Shown here piece after piece: positions 27,242-39,906 of a stretch of 40,378 bases of DNA; positions within the stretch are counted from its first letter, which is position 1; each line of letters begins with the position of its first letter. The notes below the pieces were generated by a model, which was not told the DNA's origin, made no database searches, and saw nothing but the letters and a program-made list of their open reading frames with translations. The position numbers and the translations under genes were made by a program. This stretch comes from Rhodopirellula europaea 6C. GTDB lineage: Bacteria > Planctomycetota > Planctomycetia > Pirellulales > Pirellulaceae. The stretch spans positions 1 through 40,378 of the forward strand of contig NZ_ANMO01000048.1 of the NCBI RefSeq assembly GCF_000338295.1, written 5' to 3'.

Positions 27242-28807
27242 TTATTCGTCCGTCGAAGCTTCGGAGTCTTCCGGACTCGCGTCTTCGGAAGCCGCTGGTT
27301 CCACATCAATCCGGTACGCTTTCGCGATCGCTTGTCGGCTGTAGTCGATCGATTCACCCAGGATTCGTGCGGATTCTTGGCTGGCATGGAATCCCTTGCT
27401 GTTTTCGCTGGCAATGTAGTCCAGACGCCACATCGCTTTGCGTTGCAAGTCACGAATCGGTTTGAGTTGTTCTTCGGTTGCACCGGCCTCTTGGACTTCG
27501 ATGATCGCGTCCAGCATTTCGGTCATCGCATTGGCAGCGCGATCGATCAGAGCTCTTGTTCGGTCTTGGATCACGTCCACGCGAGCTTTGATTTCGGCCT
27601 CGGGAACCTTGTGGCAGGTTTGGCAGGCCTTGTTGATGTTCATCATCGGGCTGCGAACCCAGTGACTGCTGACCTTGGTCGCACCGACCTTTTCGAACGG
27701 CATGTGGCAATCGCTGCAACTGACGCCGGCTCGGGCGTGAATGCCTTGGCTCCAAAGTTCGAACTCAGGGTGTTGAGCTTTGTAGACTTTGGTGCCGGTG
27801 GTTTTGTGAACGTAGTCGTAGAACTCTCCGCCATCGGGGAACGTGGTGGCGTCCCATTCGGCCTCGAGGTTTTCCATCTTCAATCCGTTGCTCCAGGGGT
27901 AGGTCAACGTCATCTTGTTCGCACAGTAGTACTCGACGTGGCACTGGCCGCAGACAAACGATCGCATCTCTTGGCGAGTCGCCATCGTGTTCGGATCGTA
28001 GTCGCCCTTTTTGCCGCTATCACGCCAGGACTGAATGCTGGGCAAGTGTGGAACTTCAGCGTCGCTCTTGGCAAGTTTGTCGATGCCCAAGATGAATCCG
28101 GGACGAGTGACTCGAATCGACATCGTCTCGGGGTCGTGGCAATCCACGCATGAAACCGGATGGGCACCGCCGACATGGGGATCGCCGCTCGCGGCGTCAA
28201 ATCCATCGGGAGTCTTTTCGAGTTCCGCATGGATCTCTTCGTACTTCTTGGTGCTGACCGATCGGAAGCCCGCCAAGACCGCCTCCTGTTGAAACCCATC
28301 GGCCAGTGATTTCGCGTCGGCCGGTTTGCCTTGTTCTTCCAATCCGATGCGTCGGTACGTCGCGGCGATGGACGCGTGGCAGTGCAAGCAAGCACCGGAT
28401 TGTTGAACGTCGGTCACTCGCTTGGTGACTTCTTGGTCGGCCAACATGTGAGCGTGACCACGTGCTTCGCGATAATCAATGCTGAAGGCATAGCCAGCAA
28501 ACAATCGTTTCAGCCAAGGCGATTCTTCCAGCTTGCTGGGTGGCAGAGCGTGGTTGCCGCCGAAGTCGGTGTAATCGTCGTTGACCGTTTTCAGGTAGTC
28601 CTCGTATTGCTGCGGGAAGTTCAGACCCCAGGGTTCTGGGTCGGTGCTGATTTCAGTGACGTCGACCACCTTGGTGAACGGAGCCCTGGCCTCTTGCTTG
28701 CGTTCAAAGATGTTGACCAGCAACGCGACAACGCCGAAGGTTGCGAAAGCGGTCAGTGCGGTCAATAGAATCAGCCATCCGAAGCTGCGTGGTTGCTGAT
28801 CGGACAT
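27242..28807 (-). CDS. nrfA: Ammonia-forming cytochrome c nitrite reductase NrfA
   Basis: A 521-residue pentahaem cytochrome c. It catalyses the six-electron reduction of nitrite to ammonium in the periplasm. Five haem motifs are seen: CLHCH (Cys140-His144), CVDCH (220-224), CGQCH (286-290), CSDCH (364-368) and CQTCH (395-399). The family hallmark CGQCHVEYYC is present. The first motif, at the position of the active-site haem, is CXXCH and not the classical CXXCK. The N-terminus has an uncleaved membrane anchor (about 10-32). It lies 82 bases downstream of nrfH, forming the usual nrfHA electron-transfer pair fed by menaquinol. The C-terminal tail is acidic. It may also act on hydroxylamine or sulfite. 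Confidence 0.95.
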   Translation of the reverse strand: MSDQQPRSFGWLILLTALTAFATFGVVALLVNIFERKQEARAPFTKVVDVTEISTDPEPWGLNFPQQYEDYLKTVNDDYTDFGGNHALPPSKLEESPWLKRLFAGYAFSIDYREARGHAHMLADQEVTKRVTDVQQSGACLHCHASIAATYRRIGLEEQGKPADAKSLADGFQQEAVLAGFRSVSTKKYEEIHAELEKTPDGFDAASGDPHVGGAHPVSCVDCHDPETMSIRVTRPGFILGIDKLAKSDAEVPHLPSIQSWRDSGKKGDYDPNTMATRQEMRSFVCGQCHVEYYCANKMTLTYPWSNGLKMENLEAEWDATTFPDGGEFYDYVHKTTGTKVYKAQHPEFELWSQGIHARAGVSCSDCHMPFEKVGATKVSSHWVRSPMMNINKACQTCHKVPEAEIKARVDVIQDRTRALIDRAANAMTEMLDAIIEVQEAGATEEQLKPIRDLQRKAMWRLDYIASENSKGFHASQESARILGESIDYSRQAIAKAYRIDVEPAASEDASPEDSEASTDE

Positions 28808-28889
28808 GACAAACCTTTGCGAACGAAGATTGAAAGAAGAGGACGAATAGGAAAAACGTCAAAGAACGAGGTCGACACCAAAAACGGTG

Positions 28890-29426
28890 TCAACGCGGAT
28901 GCATCCAGTCCACTTTGCCGTGACCCGCATGGCCGACGTCGGCATGGCAATGGACGCAGTTCTGCATGTCACCTTGCGAGGTCGCGGGCAACAACGCATG
29001 CACAAAATCTCGATGGCAGTCCACGCAAGTGCTCTGAGTGACTCGGCGGTTGCGTGGTTTGATTTCGATCGGATCGGAATAGCCACCCAAGGTGAATGCC
29101 AAGGAGTGGAAGAATCCATTGTCGCCTTTGACGACCCACTTGCCGATTTTGTCGTGCGGCAGGTGGCAATCATTGCAAACGGCAACATGGTGGTGAGAAC
29201 TCTGCTGCCAAGAATCAAAGTGCGATTGCATCACGTGACAATTGACGCACGTCTCGGGTTGGTTGCTCAGGTAGCTGGCGCCTTTGCCGTAACCGAAAGT
29301 GAACGTGCCGATACCGGCGAGCAGTCCGAGTACCAAACAAAAGGCAAACGTTGCTTTTGAATTCCGGGTTTTCGCGGAGTTCTTGGTCGGCATCGGTTCC
29401 GACGGATCGCCGGTGGCAGATCGCAT
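28890..29426 (-). CDS. nrfH: Tetrahaem quinol dehydrogenase NrfH
   Basis: A 178-residue NapC/NirT-type membrane cytochrome. A transmembrane anchor (about 25-47) is followed by four haem c motifs: CVNCH (60-64), CNDCH (84-88), CVDCH (134-138) and CVHCH (157-161). CVNCHVM at haem 1 supplies the methionine ligand typical of NrfH. It takes electrons from menaquinol and passes them to NrfA, the next gene. ATG 29426 is preceded by AAAGGAA at a usable distance; an in-frame extension to 29516 exists but carries no conserved sequence. ATG 29393 is a further alternative. Confidence 0.94.
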   Translation of the reverse strand: MRSATGDPSEPMPTKNSAKTRNSKATFAFCLVLGLLAGIGTFTFGYGKGASYLSNQPETCVNCHVMQSHFDSWQQSSHHHVAVCNDCHLPHDKIGKWVVKGDNGFFHSLAFTLGGYSDPIEIKPRNRRVTQSTCVDCHRDFVHALLPATSQGDMQNCVHCHADVGHAGHGKVDWMHPR

Positions 29427-29504
29427 GATGATCCATTCCTTTCGCGTGACCCAAGACAAGTCAGAGATGACTCGCTTGGTGAAATGGAATGTAGCAACTT
29501 GCTT

Positions 29505-29516
29505 GTGCACGTGCAC
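29505..29516. promoter_or_regulatory. 12-bp perfect palindrome upstream of nrfH
   Basis: GTGCACGTGCAC at 29505-29516 is a perfect 12-bp palindrome about 80 bases before the nrfH start, in the region expected to hold its promoter. It could be an operator for a dimeric regulator. It matches neither the FNR site TTGAT-N4-ATCAA nor any other operator I recognise. Confidence 0.35.
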
Positions 29517-29634
29517 GTTTTGAACAACGGAATTCTGCTCTGATGTCAGAACTTCATCGGCCCCTATTCACTGCGGTCGGACTTTTGCAATCTTGGTGTG
29601 CTAGTTTGCCCAGTTGTAGTGTTCGCTTGTGACC

Positions 29635-30090
29635 CTATGGCACGCTCTCGTAACCATCCGGTGCGCGGAGAAGCTTGTTATGCGTGTGGACTCGTCGTGT
29701 GGGCTGCCCATGTGGATTGACGAGCTCGCCACCGGCTTCACACCACCCCAGTATTCCCGGTCGATAGTTACGAGCTTGGATTCCGTTTTGCAGGCAACGT
29801 TGAGCGAAAAGCAAGCTGCGACCGCCGACCGTGCAGGACGCAATCACCGTTCGGTTTTGGAGATCGTCCCGCTGCAACCAAAATTCGTCCATCGAAATGG
29901 CACCGGGGATTTGCGAAACATCTCGCTCGGATTGTGAACGGACATCCACCAGGACGAATGACTCGTCATCCTGTTCTAGCAAGGCGCGTAGTTCCTCGGT
30001 CGAGATATCTTCGACTCGGCTTCGCCTGACGAACGGGGCGATCCAATTGAGCCAGCGAACAAATTGCTCGGAAAGCCAAATCATCTGCAT
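29635..30090 (-). CDS. Rhodanese-like sulfurtransferase
   Basis: A 151-residue single rhodanese domain (about residues 28-125). VLVDVRSQSERDVSQIPGAI is the usual domain opening, and the active loop is ASCTVGGRS with Cys86, so it can carry a persulfide. A short unrelated tail follows (about 126-151). It probably moves sulfane sulfur in the cytoplasm. It lies 208 bases upstream of nrfH on the same strand, and about 600 bases from the persulfide-dioxygenase-like gene, so it can belong to either unit. ATG 30090 was used; ATG 30084 is equally possible. Confidence 0.88.
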   Translation of the reverse strand: MQMIWLSEQFVRWLNWIAPFVRRSRVEDISTEELRALLEQDDESFVLVDVRSQSERDVSQIPGAISMDEFWLQRDDLQNRTVIASCTVGGRSLLFAQRCLQNGIQARNYRPGILGWCEAGGELVNPHGQPTRRVHTHNKLLRAPDGYESVP

Positions 30091-30699: not shown

Positions 30700-32100
30700 C
30701 TATTTTTCGACGCAGTAGCCCGCGTTTTTCCAGGCACTCATGCTGCCGGGCACGTTGTGAACCTGCTGGAAACCGTTTCGTTGCAACACGCTCGCAGCGA
30801 TGCTCGCTCGATACCCACTGCCGCAATAAACCGCGACGGGTTCGTCTCGGTTCAGGTCCAACTCGCCGTTGACGCCGTTTCTCATCTCAGCGACGTAGTG
30901 GTGTTTCGCTCCTGAAATTCGATTGGATTCGAACTCGGAAGGGGCACGGACGTCGAGGATCTGAAACTCACTCTGGTGTTCGTTCAGATCGTGAACGGTG
31001 AGTTGTGGAGTGGTCGACAACGGCAGTCCGGCATTGTCCCAAGCTTTCATACCGCCGACGAGATAGCCTTCGAAGCGATGCAATCCGACGACCGCAAAAT
31101 GCCACGCGATCCAATCCAATTGGGTCTCATCATCCGCGACGAGCAAGATCGGCCGATCGTAGTCGAGCATGTCGCCGGCCCAGACAGATAGTTCAGGTCG
31201 GTCACCCAAGTTGATTGCACCCTCAATGTGGCCTCCACCAAACGCGAGCATTTGACGTGTGTCGACGAGCTGTGCTTGGCCAGTCTGAATGGCTTCTTGG
31301 AACCGTTTCGGAGGCAGGCCCGGAACGACGGGAGCGTGACCAATCAGATCGGGACCCTTGGCATTGATCTTCTTCAGAATCGGATAGTGTTGGGGCACCG
31401 GCGGGGCACCCTCGCTGACGAACTTTGCGAATTCGTCAAAGTCTTCGTGCTGCAAGAACGCATTGTTTTTCCGTTCCTGGCCAATGGTCGTCATCGGTCG
31501 TTCACCGATGCTGGCTCCACACGCCGAACCCGCACCATGACATGGGTAAACGATGACGTCATCGGCGAGTTTCAGGTAGTAATCACGAAGCGTTGAGAAC
31601 AGTTGCTTGGTGAGCTCTTCGGTTTCTTCCTCCCCCAGCAAATCCGGGCGACCAGCGGATCCGACGAAGAGCGAGTCACCACTGAGCACACCCCAAGGTT
31701 CGTTTGGCGAATCGGAATCAGCCAGCTCGTACGACAAATGTTCGGGCGTGTGACCAGGCGTGTGTCGGGCGGTAATTGTTGTGGATCCGAATTCAAACGA
31801 ATCTCCATCCTTGATTCTTTGAACGTCGAATCCGTAGCTGGCATCGCCTTCACCGCTCGCGAAAATCTTTGCGTTGCCGACTCTGGACTGCAGTTCGCGC
31901 GAACCGCTCATGAAGTCCGCGTGGATGTGAGTCTCAAAGATGTGCGTGATTGCGACGCCGTGTTGACGGCTGAGCTGGACGTAGGTCTCGACGTTTGGTT
32001 GTGGGTCGATGATCGCCGCGGTTCCGGTGCTGTCATCGCCGATCAAGTAGGACAGTTGCGAGATTCCTTCCGTTTGAATGCTCTCAAAAATCATGGTCAT
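30700..32100 (-). CDS. MBL-fold persulfide dioxygenase-like protein with two rhodanese domains
   Basis: A 466-residue protein of the MBL-fold sulfur dioxygenase type (CstB-like plan). The metallo-beta-lactamase domain (about 1-235) has ETHIHADFMSG (His58, His60, Asp62), RHTPGHTPEH, LSGDSLFVG and YPCHGAGS, binding a non-haem iron in this family. Two rhodanese domains follow. The first (about 255-350) lacks the catalytic cysteine (the loop reads LLVADDETQLDW); the second has YCGSGYRAS with Cys426. The expected reaction is oxidation of low-molecular persulfides to sulfite or thiosulfate, in the cytoplasm. ATG 32100 follows AGGTGA at good spacing; GTG 32109 is possible. It is downstream of the DUF442 gene with a strong hairpin between them. 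Confidence 0.9.
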   Translation of the reverse strand: MTMIFESIQTEGISQLSYLIGDDSTGTAAIIDPQPNVETYVQLSRQHGVAITHIFETHIHADFMSGSRELQSRVGNAKIFASGEGDASYGFDVQRIKDGDSFEFGSTTITARHTPGHTPEHLSYELADSDSPNEPWGVLSGDSLFVGSAGRPDLLGEEETEELTKQLFSTLRDYYLKLADDVIVYPCHGAGSACGASIGERPMTTIGQERKNNAFLQHEDFDEFAKFVSEGAPPVPQHYPILKKINAKGPDLIGHAPVVPGLPPKRFQEAIQTGQAQLVDTRQMLAFGGGHIEGAINLGDRPELSVWAGDMLDYDRPILLVADDETQLDWIAWHFAVVGLHRFEGYLVGGMKAWDNAGLPLSTTPQLTVHDLNEHQSEFQILDVRAPSEFESNRISGAKHHYVAEMRNGVNGELDLNRDEPVAVYCGSGYRASIAASVLQRNGFQQVHNVPGSMSAWKNAGYCVEK

Positions 32101-32144
32101 CGGACTCACCTGGATGTCTGGAAAAAAATGTCAGTGGAATCGGT

Positions 32145-32220: not shown

Positions 32221-32682
32221 TCAATTCGCGGCAGCTTGCGTGCGGTTGTCGACGTATTGCTTCACGAATTGTTCCAGCTCGGGTTTGTCGCATTCGAAGC
32301 CCATCTCTTTGGCTTTCTCGAGTGCTTGTTCGCCCGAGATGCCTTGTTCCACCGCGGTGTGCATCATCATCATCGCTCCGGCCCGCTTGCCACTTTTGCA
32401 GTGAGCGAAAACCGGTTTGGGAAGCGATTGATATTGCTCCCGAAATTGATCCACTTTCGTTTCGTCCATACCGTCCATTGAGACTGGGACGTGGAGATAC
32501 TTCAGGCCGGTTCCCTGCACGACCTCGCCTTCTTCTTCTGGAGACAAGGGCTGTTCGTCCTCTCCCGCCGTTCGAAAGTTGATCACAGAACGAAAGCCGT
32601 CGTCTGGCAACGCTTTCAGTTCTTCCTGGCTGGGTTGTGGGCCGACGGTCAATTGATCGTTGAATTTCATTCGATTTGACAT
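32221..32682 (-). CDS. DUF442 beta-lactamase-hydrolase-like phosphatase-fold protein
   Basis: A 153-residue protein of the DUF442 (BLH-like) family with a tyrosine-phosphatase fold: LTVGPQPSQEELKALPDDGF at the N-terminus and the active loop FAHCKSGKRAGAM with Cys95 and Arg100. The loop is CX4R, one residue shorter than CX5R of classical phosphatases, as usual for this family. DUF442 domains occur beside or fused to sulfur dioxygenases and sulfide:quinone reductases, so a role in persulfide or sulfide handling fits the downstream MBL/rhodanese gene. ATG 32682 follows CGGAG. A sigma-54-type promoter lies about 70 bases upstream and is divergent from the universal stress gene. Confidence 0.88.
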   Translation of the reverse strand: MSNRMKFNDQLTVGPQPSQEELKALPDDGFRSVINFRTAGEDEQPLSPEEEGEVVQGTGLKYLHVPVSMDGMDETKVDQFREQYQSLPKPVFAHCKSGKRAGAMMMMHTAVEQGISGEQALEKAKEMGFECDKPELEQFVKQYVDNRTQAAAN

Positions 32683-32748: not shown

Positions 32749-32764
32749 AGCAACTGATGTTCCA
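32749..32764 (-). promoter_or_regulatory. Sigma-54 -24/-12 promoter candidate for DUF442-MBL genes
   Basis: On the minus strand TGGAACATCAGTTGCT keeps the invariant GG-N10-GC and the TTGC of the -12 element (consensus TGGCACG-N4-TTGCW). Transcription would start near 32738, leaving a leader of about 56 bases before ATG 32682. Confidence 0.65.
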
Positions 32765-32881
32765 GATGCTTGTGCCCACCAGCACGGCGGTGCTGAATTC
32801 GATTGCCTTTGTGAGCTGATGCCGTGTTCTCGCCGGGACATCCTCAGGTGGAAACGCAATGTGTGCAAACGCCGGACATCG

Positions 32882-32899
32882 GTGTGACGGATCGCACAC
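32882..32899. promoter_or_regulatory. Dyad TGTG-N8-CACA upstream of divergent stress and DUF442 genes
   Basis: GTGTGACGGATCGCACAC has matching outer arms GTGTG and CACAC. Its centre is 51 bp upstream of the GG of the plus-strand sigma-54 site and 128 bp from the minus-strand one. It resembles the dyads at 35477 and 38044. It may be an enhancer site for the NtrC-type regulator, or a Crp-family operator (TGTGA-N6-TCACA-like). Confidence 0.5.
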
Positions 32900-32939
32900 T
32901 TCCAGGCGTTTGAGTGCCGGAAAACCGGCTTGGACGGTT

Positions 32940-32955
32940 TGGCACCAAGATTGCA
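32940..32955 (+). promoter_or_regulatory. Sigma-54 -24/-12 promoter for universal stress gene
   Basis: TGGCACCAAGATTGCA matches the consensus TGGCACG-N4-TTGCW at all but one specified base. Transcription would start near 32966, about 75 bases before ATG 33041. Position, orientation and near-perfect match make this the strongest promoter in the window. Confidence 0.8.
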
Positions 32956-33040
32956 ATTTTGTGAAAAGGACCACCGCTGCGAGCGATCAGGCGTTGCTAT
33001 CTAGGTTCGGGATCGCATTTCAAAACCAGGAGTCAGAGTC

Positions 33041-33952
33041 ATGCACAACGTTCTGTTGGCCATTGATGGGTCGAAAGCTTCAGAAGAAGCCGCCAAGTTT
33101 TTTGCTCGCATTCCCCACTTTGATCCAGTCGAATTGACCCTGGTGTCGGTTGTTCATCGACGCTTTGTGCATGCCAGCTATGCGACCAATGAACTGGTCG
33201 AAAAAGCGTTTGAACAGGATCGCGTGGACGCTCTGCGAAGCTTGGATCGCATCGCCGAGCTGTTCGATGGTGCGAACGTTCGCGTGCGATCGGAACTGAT
33301 CGAGGGCGTCGTTGGTGAATCCATCGTGCAAAAGGCGAGAGACATTCGGGCTGATCTGGTGGTGGTGGGAGCGACCGGGCACTCCCAAGTCAGCCGCATG
33401 TTGCTTGGAAGTATTAGCGACTTCGTGGCAACTCATTCGCCGTGCAGTGTTTTGGTCGTGCGTCCCCAATCCATTCCCAAAGCTTCTGCTCCACTAAAAG
33501 TCTGCTTGGGTTACGAGGGCACCGGCCCGTGCCAAGCCGCCTTGGAAGAGTTGAAAGAGAGTCCTTGGCGTGGAGAAACGGAACTGCATGTTGTGACGGT
33601 TGCCGCTTGCCTGAACGAGATGTACGCCGATTCGGACTGTGTCCAGCACTACAAGGATCAACTCGTCCAAGCAAAAGAACAGCTTGAAGAAGTGTCGGAT
33701 TCTGTAACAACCCACTTCATCGAGGACGTTCACTACGGCGAAGGCATCACGCGTTTTGTGGAAAGCCACGACATCAACTTGGTTGTCTTGGGCGAAACGC
33801 CTCGATCGCAGTTCAGTCGTTTCCTCTTGGGAAGCACTTCCCAGTACGTGCTGAGACACGTTCCTTGCAGTGTGTGGATCACTCGTAACCGAATGATCGA
33901 AGGCTTGAAGGGGAAACAGTCCAAGTCGGATGCACGCTCGGCGTTGAGCTGA
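33041..33952 (+). CDS. Tandem universal stress protein
   Basis: A 303-residue protein with two UspA domains (about 1-145 and 150-290). The first begins HNVLLAIDGSKASEEAAKFF and ends with the ATP-binding loop GATGHSQVSRMLLGSISDFV; the second ends with VVLGETPRSQFSRFLLGSTS, also followed by PCSVWI. Usp proteins bind ATP or act as dimeric scaffolds in starvation, oxygen or redox stress. AGGAG at 33028-33032 precedes ATG 33041 by 8 bases. A near-consensus sigma-54 promoter lies 85 bases upstream, so it needs an enhancer-binding activator, most likely the NtrC-type protein encoded at 36.4-37.9 kb. Divergent from DUF442. Confidence 0.93.
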   Translation: MHNVLLAIDGSKASEEAAKFFARIPHFDPVELTLVSVVHRRFVHASYATNELVEKAFEQDRVDALRSLDRIAELFDGANVRVRSELIEGVVGESIVQKARDIRADLVVVGATGHSQVSRMLLGSISDFVATHSPCSVLVVRPQSIPKASAPLKVCLGYEGTGPCQAALEELKESPWRGETELHVVTVAACLNEMYADSDCVQHYKDQLVQAKEQLEEVSDSVTTHFIEDVHYGEGITRFVESHDINLVVLGETPRSQFSRFLLGSTSQYVLRHVPCSVWITRNRMIEGLKGKQSKSDARSALS

Positions 33953-34019
33953 AGGCGATTGCTTGAATGAGCAACGAAGCGACGGTCGATATCAATCGAT
34001 CGTTGGCTCGGCAGTCAGG

Positions 34020-34041
34020 ACGTAGCGTGGAAACGCTACGT
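34020..34041. terminator. Hairpin downstream of the first universal stress gene
   Basis: ACGTAGCGT (34020-34028) and ACGCTACGT (34033-34041) pair perfectly around GGAA, 68 bases after the stop. No T-tract follows. It may stop or stabilise the stress-gene transcript. Confidence 0.45.
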
Positions 34042-34065
34042 TGTACTGGCCGTTTCGGCGTTGGA

Positions 34066-34227
34066 GGGCTGTTGATTAAGTCGTGTACCGAATAGAAACA
34101 GTTAGCCGATGGGCGTTAGCCACGGTAGGCATCTGATCAACCGCCGCTAACGCTGTAAGGCGTATTAAATCAACAGCCCGTTAGCCAAGGTGCTTACCAC
34201 GAAAACCGCGGCTAACGCCCAATCGGC
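34066..34227. repeat. REP-like element with overlapping inverted repeats
   Basis: Two inverted repeats interlock. GGGCTGTTGATTAA (34066-34079) matches the reverse complement of 34165-34179 with one indel. The second pair is 34104-34126, which reads GATGGGCGTTAGCCACGGT, and 34205-34227, with one mismatch and one indel. Extra GCTAACGC-like copies lie at 34146 and 34180. The GGCGTTRGCCACGGT core returns in the palindrome at 39780-39843, so this is probably a chromosomal repeat family. There is no gene here. Confidence 0.75.
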
Positions 34228-34342
34228 AAATTTAGTATGAGGCCGTCCAGGTAATCACTCTCAACGAAAACCAATTTGGTTGAGAGGCCGGACGTTTCAG
34301 GTTGCTGCGAGGCTCGGCTTCCTAAGCACCAGGGGCCAATAT

Positions 34343-34396
34343 CCGAAGGCTCTGTGCCCGCCGAAGGCTCTGTGTCGGCCGAAGGTGCTGGGCCAG
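34343..34396. repeat. Three 18-bp imperfect tandem repeats
   Basis: CCGAAGGCTCTGTGCCCG (34343-34360) is followed by CCGAAGGCTCTGTGTCGG (34361-34378) and the more diverged CCGAAGGTGCTGGGCCAG (34379-34396). They end 7 bases before the stop codon end of the second universal stress gene, in its 3' untranslated region. No coding role is evident. Confidence 0.85.
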
Positions 34397-34402
34397 CGAA
34401 CG

Positions 34403-35350
34403 TCAGGTGCCGGCCAAAGATTGCTCGGCGATCTGTCGATGTGCTTTAGCCCGGTCTTCTCGATCGCGAATGATCAGGACGCTGCAATCCGCATGGCGGA
34501 GGACGTAGCGTGAGGTGCTGCCCAGGAACACGCGGGTGAGCAAGCCACTGTCGCTGTCGCCCGTCACGGCCAAGTCACATCCGTGTCGACGTCCGTATTC
34601 GACCAATGCTTCGCCCACATGGTCCGACTCGACGAGGTGACTCTCGGTGTTCAGGCCAAATTCTTGAAGCTTCGTTTCGAAGTCGAGGATCTGGGCTTGA
34701 GCCTGTTCGTACTGTGCCTGCCATGCCACAGACGCTTGCTGACGAAGGTCTTGTCGATAGAACGAGAACCGGTCCAGGACGCGAACCAAATGAACTTCCA
34801 CGTTGGGACGCAACTTCAATTCACGTAGCCATGCCAGCATTCGTTCGTCTTCCGGGCGTCCCGACAACGCCAGCATGATCTTTTGCAAGTCCGGTTCCAC
34901 ATCGGCTTCGCTGGTGGGACGCACAACGAGAGTACTCGTGTCCGCGTGCGTGGCCACATAGTCGGACACGCTGCCCAGCAGCACGCGTTCGATCGCGGAG
35001 TGTCCGATCGCACCGAGAACGATCAGGTCCGCGCCGGATTCCTCGGCCACATCTAACAAGGATGATGTCGGTGGTCCAATGGGCACATGGGTGTGAACCG
35101 AGTGAACATGGTCCTGAGACGTCAAATCGCTCGCTACTGCCTCAATCGCTTCGCGATTTCGGTCGGTTTCGATTTCTAGGAAACTGCCGAAATCCATCGG
35201 CATGCTCATCCCACCTGTGTCGACCAACATTGGCGGTGCAACCACAGAAACCAAGTCAAAATCAATGGGCTTTCGAAGCGGTAAGCGTGTCGCAAACTCA
35301 ACCGCTTGTTGCGAGTAAGAAGACGAATCGACAGCCAGTAGAATTCGCAT
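34403..35350 (-). CDS. Tandem universal stress protein
   Basis: A 315-residue protein with two UspA domains: MRILLAVDSSSYSQQAVEFA starts the first, whose loop is GAIGHSAIERVLLGSVSDYV; the second ends GDSDSGLLTRVFLGSTSRYV followed by DCSVLIIRD. Both halves keep the G-2x-G-9x-G(S/T) nucleotide-binding pattern, although the second is weaker. Likely a cytoplasmic stress protein. It is the third gene in the minus-strand order regulator, Usp, Usp, but has its own sigma-54-type promoter and dyad in the 190-base gap before it. Confidence 0.92.
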   Translation of the reverse strand: MRILLAVDSSSYSQQAVEFATRLPLRKPIDFDLVSVVAPPMLVDTGGMSMPMDFGSFLEIETDRNREAIEAVASDLTSQDHVHSVHTHVPIGPPTSSLLDVAEESGADLIVLGAIGHSAIERVLLGSVSDYVATHADTSTLVVRPTSEADVEPDLQKIMLALSGRPEDERMLAWLRELKLRPNVEVHLVRVLDRFSFYRQDLRQQASVAWQAQYEQAQAQILDFETKLQEFGLNTESHLVESDHVGEALVEYGRRHGCDLAVTGDSDSGLLTRVFLGSTSRYVLRHADCSVLIIRDREDRAKAHRQIAEQSLAGT

Positions 35351-35430
35351 TGTTCAATTTCCAAGTCGAGGTTCTGAACATGATTGTTTCGAAAAGTTGA
35401 AGTTTCCAACCCCATGCGAAAGGAAGCATT

Positions 35431-35446
35431 TGCAAGGTTCAGGCCA
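35431..35446 (-). promoter_or_regulatory. Sigma-54 -24/-12 promoter candidate for the second stress gene
   Basis: On the minus strand TGGCCTGAACCTTGCA matches the consensus TGGC----G-N4-TTGCA, with two substitutions in the -24 element. Transcription would start near 35420, about 70 bases before ATG 35350. Confidence 0.7.
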
Positions 35447-35476
35447 ACTGACATTTTGTTAGGAATGGCAACACGA

Positions 35477-35495
35477 GTGTGACGCGATGTCACAC
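35477..35495. promoter_or_regulatory. Dyad GTGTGAC-N5-GTCACAC upstream of stress gene
   Basis: GTGTGACGCGATGTCACAC has perfect 7-bp arms around GCGAT. Its centre is about 41 bp upstream of the sigma-54 GG, one helical turn closer than in the dyad at 32882. It is the best-formed copy of the TGTG-CACA element. Confidence 0.65.
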
Positions 35496-35540
35496 ATTGG
35501 CCTTGCCGCGAGACAGATCGCACGGATCCGAGTTCCGTGG

Positions 35541-36452
35541 CTAGCGAACGATCAACACGGATTGGGTGGCGTGCCGGACGACAAAGCGACTGACGCTTCC
35601 CAGCATAACTTGCTCCAGCAACGAGTCATCTTGGTCGCCGACGGCAATCAAATCACACGCATGCTCGTTCGCGTATTCGAGGACCGCCCGTCCGACATTC
35701 GGCGACTCCAGTAAGTTTGATTTAACGTTCATTCCTAGAGCTTCCAAACGCGGTCGGGTGGACTCCATCAGCTTCCAGGCCGCGGATCGGACTTCTTCCA
35801 TGTAGGCGGCGACTTTTTTGAGCAAATGCAGCTCGTACTCGGGGTGTGTTTCCATCACGTGAACCAAGTGCACTTCGCAATTCGGTACCAGTCGCAACGC
35901 TGCGATCCAGTCCGGCAATGCGTTGTCCGATTCGGCATTGCTGATGGCGATCACCACACGCGAAAATAATCCTTGAGACGGTTCGTCATCTGTTTTGACA
36001 GGTCGATGCACCAAGCAGGTACGCGTGGAGCGATTGGCGACATAATCAGAGGTGCTGCCCAAGAGGATTCGCGAAAAGGCCGAATGACCGACGGAGCCGA
36101 TCACAATCCAGTCCGCGTCGAACCGTTCGGACATTTCTATCAAGCCGCGACCGGCATGTCCTTTCGAAACGGAGATCTCACACGAGCTGAACGTTTCACC
36201 GAACTTCTGCTGCAGTTGTCGTAGTTGAGTGTTTTCAGTCTCAACTCGCGAGTCAAACACATCCTGCGGGATCCACGGCATGGATGTGTCATCGATGGTG
36301 TATAGCGGCGGTTCTGGGACAACCGTTGCCAAACAAACTTCGCAGGCCGCAGCCAATGCGGATTCGGATAACGCCTGCAATGCTTCGTGCGAGGGGGCGG
36401 AGGAGTCAATGCCGACAAGTGTGCGAAGCTTGGGGTTGTTGCATGCAATCAT
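35541..36452 (-). CDS. Tandem universal stress protein, coupled to the sigma-54 regulator
   Basis: A 303-residue protein with two UspA domains. The first starts LRTLVGIDSSAPSHEALQAL and has GSVGHSAFSRILLGSTSDYV; the second has GDQDDSLLEQVMLGSVSRFV and ends at TQSVLIVR. ATG 36452 overlaps the stop of the upstream regulator gene as ATGA (36449-36452), so translation is coupled and both are on one transcript. That coupling of a Usp to an NtrC-type regulator suggests a feedback or partner role. Cysteine-rich spots near the N-terminus (residues 4, 37 and others) are unusual but of unknown meaning. Confidence 0.92.
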   Translation of the reverse strand: MIACNNPKLRTLVGIDSSAPSHEALQALSESALAAACEVCLATVVPEPPLYTIDDTSMPWIPQDVFDSRVETENTQLRQLQQKFGETFSSCEISVSKGHAGRGLIEMSERFDADWIVIGSVGHSAFSRILLGSTSDYVANRSTRTCLVHRPVKTDDEPSQGLFSRVVIAISNAESDNALPDWIAALRLVPNCEVHLVHVMETHPEYELHLLKKVAAYMEEVRSAAWKLMESTRPRLEALGMNVKSNLLESPNVGRAVLEYANEHACDLIAVGDQDDSLLEQVMLGSVSRFVVRHATQSVLIVR

Positions 36453-37909
36453 AGCGTTTCTTCCGCTGGCATGCCTTGTTCGAAACGTTCGAGCAGTCGA
36501 TACAGTTTGCGTCGATGTATACCCAAGTGGCGAGCTGTTTTGGCCTTGTTTCCTCCGAGCTGTTCCAGCACCTTCAATACATGTGTCTTGATCAAATCGT
36601 CCACTTTCAAGCTGCTGTCCCCGAGCATCAGGGGAGGTGTCGATTCGGCTGGGGATTCTTCGTCGATAGGATCCGCGCAGGTGGTTTCTTCACCAATGCA
36701 TGATCCGTCCGAATTCGCAGACGAATCCGGTGTCGAACCGGAATTGGATGTCAGATTGGACAATTCGCGGGGTAGATCATCCATTGTGATCACTTGGTGA
36801 TCCGCCAGGATTGTGGCTCGCTCGACGACGTTGATAAGCTGTCGAACGTTGCCGGGCCAATGGTACTGAACCATCGTGTCGAGAGCTTCTTTATCGAAAG
36901 ACCAACCGCGCGGGAGGAAATGATGAAGCAGCAGTTCAATGTCGCCTTCACGTTGTCGAAGGGGTGGCAGATTAAGCGTGAGAACATTGATGCGGTAAAG
37001 CAGGTCCTCTCGAAATCTGCCTGCTTGGACTTCTTCCAAGAGATCGCGGTTGGTGGCGGCGATCAGTCGCACTTTCACTTTGCGTTCTCGATGGCAACCG
37101 ATCCGGCGAAGCGATCCATCTTCTAAGACACGAAGCAATTTGGGTTGCAAAGCGGGAGGCAGTTCGCCGACTTCATCGATAAAGAGTGTGCCTCCGTCTG
37201 CGACTTCAAACAGTCCCGGTTGATCGGCCGTGGCTCCTGTGAACGATCCCTTTTGATGTCCAAAGAGTTCGCTCTCGACCAACTGGGGCGGCAAGGCGGC
37301 GCAGTTGATCGTCACGAATGGTCGATCTGCCAAATCGCTCTGTTGCTGGACCGATCTCGCGACGACTTCCTTGCCTGTCCCGCTTTCTCCTTCGATCAGA
37401 ACCGGTTTTCGAGTTGGAGCAACTTTCGTGATCATCCGCGAGAGTTCTTTCATCGTGAGCGAATTGCCGATGAGTTTGGGAGTCGGGCGGTTTCGATGCA
37501 CGATCGCTTTGAGCTGTTGGTTTTCTTTCTTGAGGTGGCCACGCTGCTGAGCCAGTTGGACGCGGTGTTCGAGATCAGCGAGTGAACATGGCTTGGTCAG
37601 AAAGTCGCAAGCACCCATCTGCATCGCTTGCACGCACGCCTCGATGGTTCCTTTGCCAGTCAGAAAAACAACTTCGACGTCGTGGGATTCCTCGTGGACG
37701 CGTTGCATCAACTCCAGTCCACTCATGCCGGGCATGTCGATGTCGAACACGGCCACGTCGAATGCCTCTCGGTCGAGGAACGACAGGGCTTCGGCTCCAC
37801 TGGCTGCCAACCGGACCGTGTGTCCCATCCGCTCCATGAACTTGCCACAACTGCGACGGTAGTCATCTTCGTCATCAACGAGAAGCATTTTGATGGCGGT
37901 TTGGCTCAT
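36449..37909 (-). CDS. NtrC-family sigma-54-dependent response regulator
   Basis: A 486-residue transcription activator. Receiver domain (about 5-120) with phospho-acceptor Asp56 in [10 protein letters not shown] and Lys107 in TKPC. AAA+ domain (about 145-375): Walker A GESGTGK (174-180), the sigma-54 contact loop GSFTGA (221-226; consensus GAFTGA, so one substitution), Walker [11 protein letters not shown] (Asp245, Glu246), and WPGNVRQL. C-terminal Fis-type helix-turn-helix (about 440-478, [20 protein letters not shown]). It uses ATP to open sigma-54 promoters. ATG 37909 gives a normal receiver start; a TTG at 37924 is possible. It is divergent from the kinase gene, and a Usp gene follows with overlap. 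Confidence 0.95.
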
Positions 37910-37966
37910 GGTGATACCGATCAAGAAGAAGACGTGTCAGCGATCTGTGTTCGCTCAGATCGAACT

Positions 37967-37981
37967 GCGATCCCTGTTCCA
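37967..37981 (-). promoter_or_regulatory. Possible sigma-54 promoter for the regulator gene
   Basis: On the minus strand TGGAACAGGGATCGC keeps GG-N10-GC but has TCGC instead of TTGC. Its -24 half TGGAACA is the same as in the DUF442 promoter. Transcription would start near 37955, about 45 bases before ATG 37909. The match is weaker than the others. Confidence 0.4.
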
Positions 37982-38043
37982 GCACGCCAAAACCTGGCAG
38001 GAAGCCTTTTGGCCCTCTATTTCGTGCGTCAGGGATCACTGGG

Positions 38044-38059
38044 TGTGCATTATGGCACA
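38044..38059. promoter_or_regulatory. Dyad TGTGC-N6-GCACA between regulator and kinase genes
   Basis: TGTGCATTATGGCACA has perfect 5-bp arms and the same TGTG-N8-CACA spacing as the dyad at 32882. It lies 72 bp from the GG of the minus-strand and 143 bp from that of the plus-strand sigma-54 candidates, so one site could serve both divergent genes. Confidence 0.5.
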
Positions 38060-38192
38060 GTTGACGCAGGCGATGACAGCAAACTCCAAAACGAGCTGCG
38101 GTGAAACCATTTCTCGTAGCATCGGCAGAGCCGGCTGTTCGATAGGCGTTAGCGGGCAGGTTCGTTGAGCGGTGGTGTCACAAACCACCGCA

Positions 38193-38207
38193 TGGCATGA
38201 CGTTCGC
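38193..38207 (+). promoter_or_regulatory. Possible sigma-54 promoter for the histidine kinase gene
   Basis: TGGCATGACGTTCGC keeps GG-N10-GC and seven of the other consensus bases, with TCGC for TTGC. Transcription would start near 38218, about 70 bases before ATG 38289. A perfect 7-bp inverted repeat, CGGTGGT (38170-38176) and ACCACCG (38184-38190), abuts it upstream. Confidence 0.5.
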
Positions 38208-38288
38208 GATGCGAGCGAGTGATAGAAGTGTCGATTTCAGAAATGCAAGAAGAATCGTTTTGTCGCCATCCATTTGTCGTCTGACCCC

Positions 38289-39740
38289 ATGACTTATCTC
38301 AACCACATTCTCATCATCGAGGACGAGCTTGATGCTGCCGAATCATTGTCGGACATGTTGTCCATCGATGGGTTTGAAATCACAATTGCTGCGAGTGTGC
38401 AAGACGCGATGAAGCTGTTGGAGGAGCAGCGGTTTGGCGTGATCTTGACGGATCGACATTTGCCCGATGGTTTGATCGAGCATCGACTGCAGGAAATCTT
38501 GGAAGTCAGTTCCAGGACACCCGTCATCGTTGTGACGGGGTACAGCGATCTGCAAGCTGTTATCCTTGCGTTTCGCCAAGGGATCTCGGACTACGTGATC
38601 AAGCCGATCATCCCGGAAGATTTGATCCATACCGTTCGTCGGATTCTTGACCGACGTGTTTTGGAGCAGCATCTCAAGGTCGAGCATGCCTTTGCCGAAC
38701 GCATCCAGTCAACGGCCGAAGCGATCATCTTGGTGATTGATTTCGATGGCCGAGTGATCCACTTCAATCGGTTCTTTACGGAGCTGACGGGCTGGGCTCA
38801 GGACGACCTGATCGGAGAGAATTGGTTCGAGCGATGTATCTATCCGGAAGACAGGGATCTATTGATCAATGTTTGCGACACGATGTCTCGAACCGATCGC
38901 TATCGTGGGTGCACGAATCGGATTCGTTGTAAGAACGGCGAGGCTCGCGAAATTCGATGGTCGAATTCCAAGTGGAGTGAATCCGATGGCGGTCAGCAGT
39001 TCATTCTCGCCATTGGAATCGATGTTTCCGACTTGGAAGAAGCGACTCAGCGTGCCGTTCGTGCGGAGCGTTTGGCTGCGATCGGAGAAACCGTCGCGGC
39101 CTTGGCGCACGAAAGCCGTAATGCGATTCAGCGAATCAATGCAGCGTCAGAAGTCCTTGCGATCAATGTTCGCGGCAATGTGGATTCGGAAGAGGAATTG
39201 TCCGTTGTCCAGCGAGCTGCATCCGATTTGTCGACGCTGCTAGAAAGCGTGCGAGCATTCGCGGCACCGATTCAAGCGAAGATGGAGTGTGCGGACCTTC
39301 GTGAGATATGGCGACGGTCTTGGGATGATCTGAAGTGCAAACGTTCGGGCCGCGATGTTCTGCTGGTTGAGAATGTGACCAGCTGTTTGCGAGAAGTGAA
39401 AGTTGACGTTTGCCGGATGGAGCAACTTTTTCGCAACCTGTTTTTAAATGCGCTCGAGGCCAGTGACGGTCCCGTTCGCATTGAGATTGACTGCGAATGC
39501 AACGAAGAAATGGTGTGTTTGAAAGTGATCGATGACGGACCGGGGCTCAGTGCGGAGCAATCCGCTCATCTGTTCGAGCCCTTCTACACGACCAAGCCAA
39601 CCGGAACCGGTTTGGGGATGCCCATTTGCCAACGCATTGCGGAAGCTCATGGCGGCACGATCGCCGCCGGGAATCATTCGAATGGAACGGAGGTGGCGAT
39701 TTGCGTTCCACGAGTGAAGGCAGCAGTTTTGGTGAGCTGA
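38289..39740 (+). CDS. Histidine kinase with N-terminal receiver and PAS domains
   Basis: A 483-residue cytoplasmic protein. Receiver domain about 5-122, with Asp55 in VILTDRHLPDG and Lys105; PAS domain about 135-250 (STAEAIILVIDFDGRVIHFN, LTGWAQDDLIG); HisKA with His274 in ALAHESRNAIQRI; HATPase with Asn387 (FLNALEA), DDGPGLS, FEPFYTTK and GTGLGM. No membrane segment is seen, so it senses an internal signal or receives phosphate from another kinase through its receiver. The divergent NtrC-type regulator is the probable partner. ATG 38289 is used; TTG 38274 is an alternative. No strong ribosome-binding site is visible. Confidence 0.93.
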   Translation: MTYLNHILIIEDELDAAESLSDMLSIDGFEITIAASVQDAMKLLEEQRFGVILTDRHLPDGLIEHRLQEILEVSSRTPVIVVTGYSDLQAVILAFRQGISDYVIKPIIPEDLIHTVRRILDRRVLEQHLKVEHAFAERIQSTAEAIILVIDFDGRVIHFNRFFTELTGWAQDDLIGENWFERCIYPEDRDLLINVCDTMSRTDRYRGCTNRIRCKNGEAREIRWSNSKWSESDGGQQFILAIGIDVSDLEEATQRAVRAERLAAIGETVAALAHESRNAIQRINAASEVLAINVRGNVDSEEELSVVQRAASDLSTLLESVRAFAAPIQAKMECADLREIWRRSWDDLKCKRSGRDVLLVENVTSCLREVKVDVCRMEQLFRNLFLNALEASDGPVRIEIDCECNEEMVCLKVIDDGPGLSAEQSAHLFEPFYTTKPTGTGLGMPICQRIAEAHGGTIAAGNHSNGTEVAICVPRVKAAVLVS

Positions 39741-39779: not shown

Positions 39780-39843
39780 GTGAGCCATTCGGCGTTGGCC
39801 ACGGTTCCCACGCTTAACCGGGGCCAACGCCCAAACGGCTCAC
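39780..39843. repeat. REP-like palindrome between convergent genes
   Basis: Three nested pairs are seen: GTGAGCC/GGCTCAC (39780-39786, 39837-39843), GGCGTTGGCC/GGCCAACGCC (39791-39800, 39822-39831) and CGGTT/AACCG (39802-39806, 39816-39820), with loop CCCACGCTT. The core resembles the element at 34104-34227. It lies 40 bases after the kinase stop and 64 before the PhnA stop, so it can end both transcripts. Confidence 0.8.
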
Positions 39844-39906
39844 GGGATTCAATCCAATCATTCCTGCTCGTCCTGTCGATCGCAGGCATTCCACGACGCC
39901 GAGCGA

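Follow-up and report, generated by a model that had tools for sequence, protein, structure and literature searches.

Whether a set of universal stress protein (Usp) genes, a putative persulfide-oxidizing enzyme and two signal transduction proteins form one sigma-54 regulon governed by a regulator encoded among them is the question raised by a gene block on contig NZ_ANMO01000048.1 of Rhodopirellula europaea 6C. The window analyzed is this whole contig (40,378 nucleotides, referred to as C48 of the 7.19 Mb genome G000), and the block reads from left to right as metallo-beta-lactamase (MBL)-rhodanese (minus strand), DUF442 (minus), UspA (plus), UspB (minus), UspC (minus), the NtrC-type response regulator RR (minus), and the hybrid kinase HK (plus). 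Our analysis indicates that the block is likely to be a sigma-54 regulon run by its own response regulator, and the regulon, as judged from sequence, is probably autoregulated. A first-pass annotation had proposed one autoregulated circuit linking stress proteins and sulfane-sulfur oxidation. It was right on the main point: the promoters are conserved, an NtrC-type activator is encoded, and a circuit including Usp genes can be inferred; its emphasis on persulfide, however, is lineage-specific, since the persulfide link is confined to the R. baltica clade. Enhancer-like dyads and a third Usp gene, UspC (35541-36452), were found in addition.

Predicted sigma-54 promoters

Sites of the GG-N10-GC architecture had been reported at 32940, 32764, 35446, 37981 and 38193, and all five are present in the orientations given. 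They are the predicted sigma-54 promoters of UspA (TGGCACCAAGATTGCA, 32940..32955, plus strand), DUF442-MBL (TGGAACATCAGTTGCT, 32749..32764, minus strand), UspB (TGGCCTGAACCTTGCA, 35431..35446, minus strand), RR-UspC (TGGAACAGGGATCGCA, 37966..37981, minus strand), and HK (TGGCATGACGTTCGCG, 38193..38208, plus strand). Three sites carry TGG-N8-TTGC, as described before, and their supposed placement 55-85 bp before a start codon was roughly right, the start codon of each of the three lying about 67-86 nt beyond where its -12 element ends.

Conservation in related genomes, which the first-pass annotation had suggested as a check, was assessed in intergenic alignments with 4 or 5 relatives. The UspA site was kept in 4/4 relatives in the alignment (and in 6/6 genomes by footprint), the DUF442-MBL site in 4/4 other genomes with the gene, so that all 5 genomes with the gene, window included, have it, and the UspB and RR-UspC sites in 5/5 aligned relatives each. 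Only the HK site departed from this, being found in 2/5 relatives as aligned and in 4/5 by direct scan; the MAFFT alignment upstream of HK misplaces the site, and the direct scan of the five relatives, used as a check, located TGGCAY..C.TTCGCG upstream of HK in G004, G005, G002 and G009 and did not find the motif in G011. The total number of GG-N10-GC matches in the three intergenic regions was 10, and the five that were not named as promoters were kept in 0 aligned relatives. Of 26 loci with an RR ortholog or paralog, with protein identities as low as about 60%, 14 have YGGAAC-N5-TCGCW upstream of the RR gene.

As a pattern alone the five sites are hardly above chance, whereas by conservation they are above it. 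TGG-N8-TTGC occurs 16 times in the window in comparison to a shuffle mean of 6.65 (standard deviation 3.07), and 2 of 100 shuffles reach 16. Genome-wide, TGGCAC-N5-TTGCW with at most one mismatch gave 302 matches in comparison to 399 for the reversed control, and because of this lack of enrichment the pattern, exact or with one mismatch, was dropped as a genome-wide detector for the stricter WTTGGCAY-N6-TGC, which gave 40 matches in comparison to 5 for its reversed control, suggesting a real promoter class. Among the 40 strict sites, 18 are intergenic and 22, including both Usp sites, fall within a called open reading frame (ORF), although the ORF calls are crude. The genome has 12 perfect TGGCACN5TTGCW sites, and that of UspA is among them. 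Contig C182 has two perfect TGGCAC-N5-TTGCW sites (9957 and 13207) in the same orientation, separated by about 3.25 kb and without a relaxed dyad upstream; they are perhaps promoters of another sigma-54 activator. The genome carries rpoN, with one match.

The regulator and the enhancer-like dyads

RR (36449..37909, minus strand; alternative open start TTG at 37924) is the presumed activator of the circuit, and the reported presence of an NtrC-family activator was borne out by Pfam, with the receiver (PF00072), sigma-54 AAA+ (PF00158) and Fis-type helix-turn-helix (HTH; PF02954) domains all above cut-off. In an alignment of 18 sequences 20 residues are invariant or nearly so, and the intact GAFTGA-type loop reads GSFTGA, with F and T invariant in 18/18. 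The GSFTGA form is listed, in the accessible part of a sigma-54 survey (PMC4641369), among loop variants expected to remain active. The HTH segment hardly varies across these 18 sequences, which would be expected of proteins with a common binding motif. The most similar RR among the relatives is that of G004 (95% identical); RR is also present in G003, G008, G010, G012, G023 and G025, with a 57% homolog in G018. A search of the plasmid collection returned at least 5,000 matches and was uninformative, with identities all below 60% among the matches listed.

Conserved dyads upstream of the promoters of the block were visible in footprints of the close genomes. Before UspA lies GTGTGACGGATCGCACAC (32882..32899, unstranded), with one mismatch to GTGC-N6-GCAC and a 14-mer core that starts 56 nt upstream of the UspA TGG; it is perhaps shared with DUF442. 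Upstream of UspB is GTGTGAC-N5-GTCACAC (35477..35495, unstranded), a form with a longer spacer, which is kept as GTG-N9-CAC in 6/6 genomes. Between RR and HK there are two candidate enhancers, an exact GTGC-N6-GCAC (38045..38058, unstranded) 77 nt upstream of the RR TGG, and, about 20 nt from it, a GTG-N10-CAC (GTGATCCCTGACGCAC, 38024..38039, minus strand) found at the same place in 6/6 genomes. Each spacing version tends to stay at its own promoter among close relatives.

When all 3,328 combinations of 4-base half-sites and spacers of 0-12 were ranked over the 350 nt upstream of RR, GTGC-N6-GCAC came first with 11 of 23 loci, the next best having 4. The 23 loci are the 26 RR loci minus the near-identical L045 (G004) and L048 and L052 (both G009). 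The same dyad was found upstream of other activators in 1 of 71 loci, a set (L140-L210) that is an imperfect control, drawn from many phyla and often with a kinase gene directly upstream. Over 29 loci (window, L045-L063 and L131-L139, near-identical ones included), the density of the dyad was 75/Mb in RR-type loci in comparison to 32/Mb in the other-activator set. Pairs of a sigma-54 site and an exact dyad located 40-100 nt before it numbered 34 in 0.52 Mb (34 loci from RR-bearing genomes) in comparison to 3 in 1.09 Mb for the 71 other-activator loci; this count left out L045, L048, L052, L062 (same contig as L138), L064, L264 (G004) and L272-L277. The distances from dyad to promoter cluster at 46-47, 56-58 and 75-78 nt, phased with the helix. 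The Rayleigh test gave p of about 1e-4 at periods 10 and 10.5 (seven periods were tried, and all of those from 9 to 11 gave p <0.005 at the first threshold), values which are optimistic, as these loci, which are related to each other, were also the source of the dyad, and as called ORFs enclose some of the pairs. Among the 40 strict sites of the genome, a GTG-N8..10-CAC dyad stands at 56-58 nt in only 2, which belong to UspA and to a Usp gene on contig C47, and at 122 nt in one more.

Kinases and a second locus

HK (38289..39740, plus strand; alternative open start TTG 38274) is a soluble hybrid kinase of the order receiver-PAS-HisKA-HATPase according to Pfam (HisKA under cut-off), and is the presumed kinase for RR. 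Its H-box, HESRNA, is invariant among 16 aligned sequences. Contig C47 of the same genome carries an HK paralog, a PAS kinase, a two-receiver protein, two Usp genes, two dihydroorotate-dehydrogenase-like genes and an AAA_33 gene. In G004 and G005 the second locus holds the same kinase set and a Usp. In G000 and G004 the dyad of the second-locus Usp matches exactly, and in G005 it carries one mismatch. RR was not found at this locus on C47 or in the 19 kb taken in G004 and G005, and since a Usp promoter with the same dyad is present there, a single RR probably serves both loci.

In G011 the PAS kinase directly follows HK, and in R. sallentina (L138) the hybrid kinase, PAS kinase and double receiver are divergent to RR. 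Because of these arrangements, HK, the PAS kinase, the double receiver and RR appear to be one system that is split in the R. baltica clade. The recurring core consists of the regulator and hybrid kinase, often with Usp genes, the second kinase and the double-receiver protein. A hemerythrin-domain gene was also noted beside the PAS kinase in Roseiconus (L131 5820-6614); hemerythrin is an NmpR target in Myxococcus according to the accessible part of PMC11841059.

Usp genes and other candidate targets

UspA (33041..33952, plus strand), UspB (34403..35350, minus strand) and UspC (35541..36452, minus strand) each have two Usp domains by Pfam. UspC overlaps the RR gene by 4 nt and is thus expected to share its transcript. 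Imperfect palindromic intergenic elements (GTTAGCC / GGCTAACGCC-like), alike by eye and resembling a dispersed repeat, are found between UspA and UspB (34050-34250) and after HK (39780-39845). The gap between UspB and UspC, about 0.2 kb in the window, is about 2.6 kb in G002 (L047 5721-8369) and 5.7 kb in G009 (L048 3090-8756).

Further Usp genes of the genome are located on contigs C120 and C168. In G006 and G007, which have no RR ortholog, only distant Usp homologs were found (best about 35% identity), and those examined had no sigma-54 sites, which is consistent with the circuit, but weakly so.

Exact dyads with a sigma-54 site were also found in relatives before a P-type cation ATPase (in L278, and in L265, where the ORF is partial), before a DeoC-type aldolase in G004 (L264, with a weak promoter score), and before a cNMP-binding gene beside an Fe-S protein (L059). 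Several exact dyads lie at L278 10300-10600 (G001), near the P-type cation ATPase and a divergent 158-aa gene, both of which are candidate targets. A nitroreductase-like gene at L059 13359 has an upstream site with a one-mismatch dyad at 68 nt; a separate nitroreductase promoter at L059 12553 was rejected, as the site lies inside the gene. At L056 986, L058 7451 and L059 13359 the form CGGCATGATC.TTGCA, accompanied by a one-mismatch dyad at 67-68 nt, stands before genes that resemble each other in length, the last being the nitroreductase-like gene. No dyad-linked promoter of their own was found in C47 for the AAA_33 and dihydroorotate-dehydrogenase-like genes, and the Usp promoter may drive the AAA_33 gene.

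The putative persulfide genes

The DUF442/Blh-type phosphatase-like (sulfur transferase) domain protein (32221..32682, minus strand) was assigned by Pfam BLH_phosphatase, and its best NCBIfam match, under cut-off, is the N-terminal part of Blh. The protein next to it (30700..32109, minus strand), presumed to be co-transcribed with it, has an MBL domain and two rhodanese stretches in Pfam and matches 3tp9 (1.2e-80) and 3r2u (2e-64) nearly full-length. We take 3r2u to be CstB, and both CstB and Blh to be persulfide dioxygenases. By its domain make-up the MBL-rhodanese protein would be a CstB-type persulfide dioxygenase. A rhodanese gene and the genes for NrfA and NrfH (window 27242-30090) adjoin the block.

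DUF442 and MBL-rhodanese occupy this place in 5/6 close genomes, counting the window; they were not found in the G011 locus, nor next to RR in more distant loci. In the aligned relatives no dyad was found at a common position before DUF442. An exact dyad that could serve DUF442 alone (32772-32785, starting 21 nt upstream of the TGG) was rejected, as it is not conserved among them; relaxed dyads before DUF442 were seen at 42 nt in L046 and at 122 nt in L047. The dyad of UspA stands at a distance of about 120 nt on the upstream side of DUF442-MBL, which may share this enhancer or answer to another activator. Since the persulfide link is confined to the R. baltica clade and lacks a commonly placed dyad, stress and persulfide together do not form the core of the regulon.

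Proposed circuit and alternative explanations

Sequence features, their conservation, and the enrichment and phasing of the dyads are observations; from them we infer DNA binding, phosphotransfer, expression and signal in the following scheme. HK, through its receiver-PAS-kinase arrangement, would feed RR, and phosphorylated RR dimers would bind the GTGC-N6-GCAC-type dyads and assemble into an AAA+ ring. This ring would open sigma-54 RNA polymerase at UspA, UspB and RR-UspC, and probably at HK and DUF442-MBL. Since enhancers lie between divergent sigma-54 promoters (RR/HK and UspA/DUF442), each may serve both directions; RR would raise the synthesis of itself and of its kinase, which amounts to positive autoregulation. 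The likely trigger would be oxygen or energy limitation, to which the recurring core points, and the output would be Usp proteins and, in the R. baltica clade, also persulfide removal.

Several findings weigh against this scheme, besides the optimism of the phasing values. The exact dyad is absent within 350 nt in 12 of the 23 RR loci; these include L049 and L050, which have one-mismatch or relaxed forms, L138, whose exact dyad stands about 418 nt upstream of RR, past the 350-nt scan, and further loci that have no such dyad. A control dyad, CGTG-N6-CACG, is almost as enriched in RR-type loci as the proposed one (54 in comparison to 28 per Mb), and a longer-spacer mixed form is enriched more (94 in comparison to 29 per Mb). 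The GTG/CAC spacer varies, being 8 or 10 at UspA, 9 at UspB and 10 at the second RR site, which would be strange for a single dimeric protein. Usp homologs in G010, G012, G018, G023, G025 and G035, and one in G003, were found without promoter plus dyad, and those in G008 have promoters with weak dyads. The oxygen signal, moreover, is argued by analogy.

The spacer variation would also suit an explanation in which the sigma-54 promoters are real but driven by another activator, the dyads being bound by a Crp/Fnr-family protein (TGTG..N6..CACA). The UspA sequence TGTGACGGATCGCACA fits the CRP site shape, TGTGA-N6-TCACA, bar one base. We consider this explanation quite improbable, because the dyad tops the ranking upstream of RR itself, is found at only 1 of 71 other activators, and is helically phased to the sigma-54 sites. 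That the sites are chance matches can hardly be credited, for although the pattern alone is near background, conservation was scored with five internal negative controls and strict sites number 40 in comparison to 5 genome-wide.

Two further alternatives concern the reach of the regulon and its signal. DUF442-MBL could stand outside the RR regulon, with a different activator acting at its conserved promoter and its position next to UspA being incidental; there is no commonly placed dyad before DUF442, the exact dyad of the window is only 21 nt off and not conserved, and the more distant loci showed no DUF442 near RR, yet the UspA dyad at about 120 nt is close enough to act as an enhancer and 5/6 close genomes keep the divergent arrangement, so that we hold this alternative to be somewhat unlikely. 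The signal could also be sulfide/persulfide or nitrogen oxides instead of oxygen or energy, as the adjoining DUF442, MBL-rhodanese, rhodanese and NrfHA genes would suggest. This seems unlikely, since the sulfur genes are lineage-specific, whereas the recurring partners are the hybrid kinase, the PAS kinase, the double receiver and often Usp.

Beyond the regulon of the block itself, which we regard as the likely explanation, a wider proposal is put forward tentatively and with some doubt. GTGC-N6-GCAC might mark a hitherto unassigned planctomycete low-oxygen/energy regulon with one autoregulated RR, two receiver-PAS hybrid kinases at separate loci that feed it, and the PAS kinase and double receiver acting as a brake. 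It would control through sigma-54, with shared divergent enhancers, a set of genes like that of DosR (Usp, P-type cation ATPase and nitroreductase-like, with the AAA_33 and dihydroorotate-dehydrogenase-like genes possibly co-transcribed), to which persulfide removal was added in the R. baltica clade. Confidence in this DosR-like proposal was lowered because of the in-gene nitroreductase site and because the AAA_33 and dihydroorotate-dehydrogenase-like genes have no direct dyad link.

Comparison with known systems

To our knowledge, few planctomycete regulators have been assigned both a motif and a list of targets. The motif, regulator and targets predicted here are testable in cultivable Rhodopirellula and would give a defined stress or low-oxygen circuit. 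A link of Usp with sigma-54 in planctomycetes is already in print: a 2025 survey (PMC12316311) found Usp (COG0589) genes enriched among predicted sigma-54 promoters in Planctomycetia, and, unlike the circuit proposed here, the accessible part of that survey assigns no activator, dyad or circuit to the Usp genes. In the accessible part of PMC2754498 the words 'universal stress' are absent and rpoN is reported as not regulated in heat shock. Among open-licence papers, a circuit with this regulator and motif was not found. Studholme and Dixon reportedly surveyed the enhancer-binding proteins of Pirellula sp. strain 1 in 2004, and could have named some of these promoters.

NmpRSTU of Myxococcus xanthus is an autoregulated sigma-54 regulon that includes a Usp and has been proposed to respond to low oxygen, as stated in the accessible part of PMC11841059. 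Like NmpRSTU, the present system has an NtrC-type regulator adjoining a receiver-first hybrid kinase (here HK), a second soluble kinase with a two-receiver-only protein (here outside the window, on C47, and beside RR in R. sallentina L138), autoregulation (predicted here), and a Usp target. Unlike NmpRSTU, the second kinases scanned are PAS kinases and not a protoglobin kinase, HK has an extra PAS domain, and the dyad upstream of RR is GTGC-N6-GCAC and not GCGCA-N5-TGCGC. A Corallococcus Nmp-like version, located by protoglobin search, stood in for M. xanthus NmpR in a reciprocal test. Its double receiver is 33% identical to that of C47 over residues 6-238 of 252. RR was rejected as an NmpR ortholog, as the NmpR-like protein ranked second when RR was searched against Corallococcus (333.1 in comparison to 338.7 bits) and RR ranked fourth when the NmpR-like protein was searched against G000. 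Without a reciprocal best match, with PAS in place of the globin kinase, and with a different dyad, the system would work like NmpRSTU but is not a member of it.

The persulfide part resembles the CstB/Blh systems in that an MBL protein with two rhodanese stretches stands beside a DUF442/Blh-type protein, and differs from them in lying behind a predicted sigma-54 promoter. DosR of mycobacteria belongs to a different regulator family and acts without sigma-54. Two mycobacterial genes, Rv1997 and Rv2004c, presumably encode a P-type cation ATPase and an AAA_33-type protein, respectively. Both are listed in the DosR hypoxia/dormancy regulon, along with the Usp Rv2005c and the nitroreductases Rv3131 and Rv2032, in the accessible part of PMC5309233. 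To that extent, the likeness to the DosR regulon lies in overlapping kinds of genes among the targets, and no homology of the regulators is claimed. If the proposal is true, a phosphorelay plan like that of Nmp and a gene set like that of DosR can meet under sigma-54 control outside the groups in which each was discovered.

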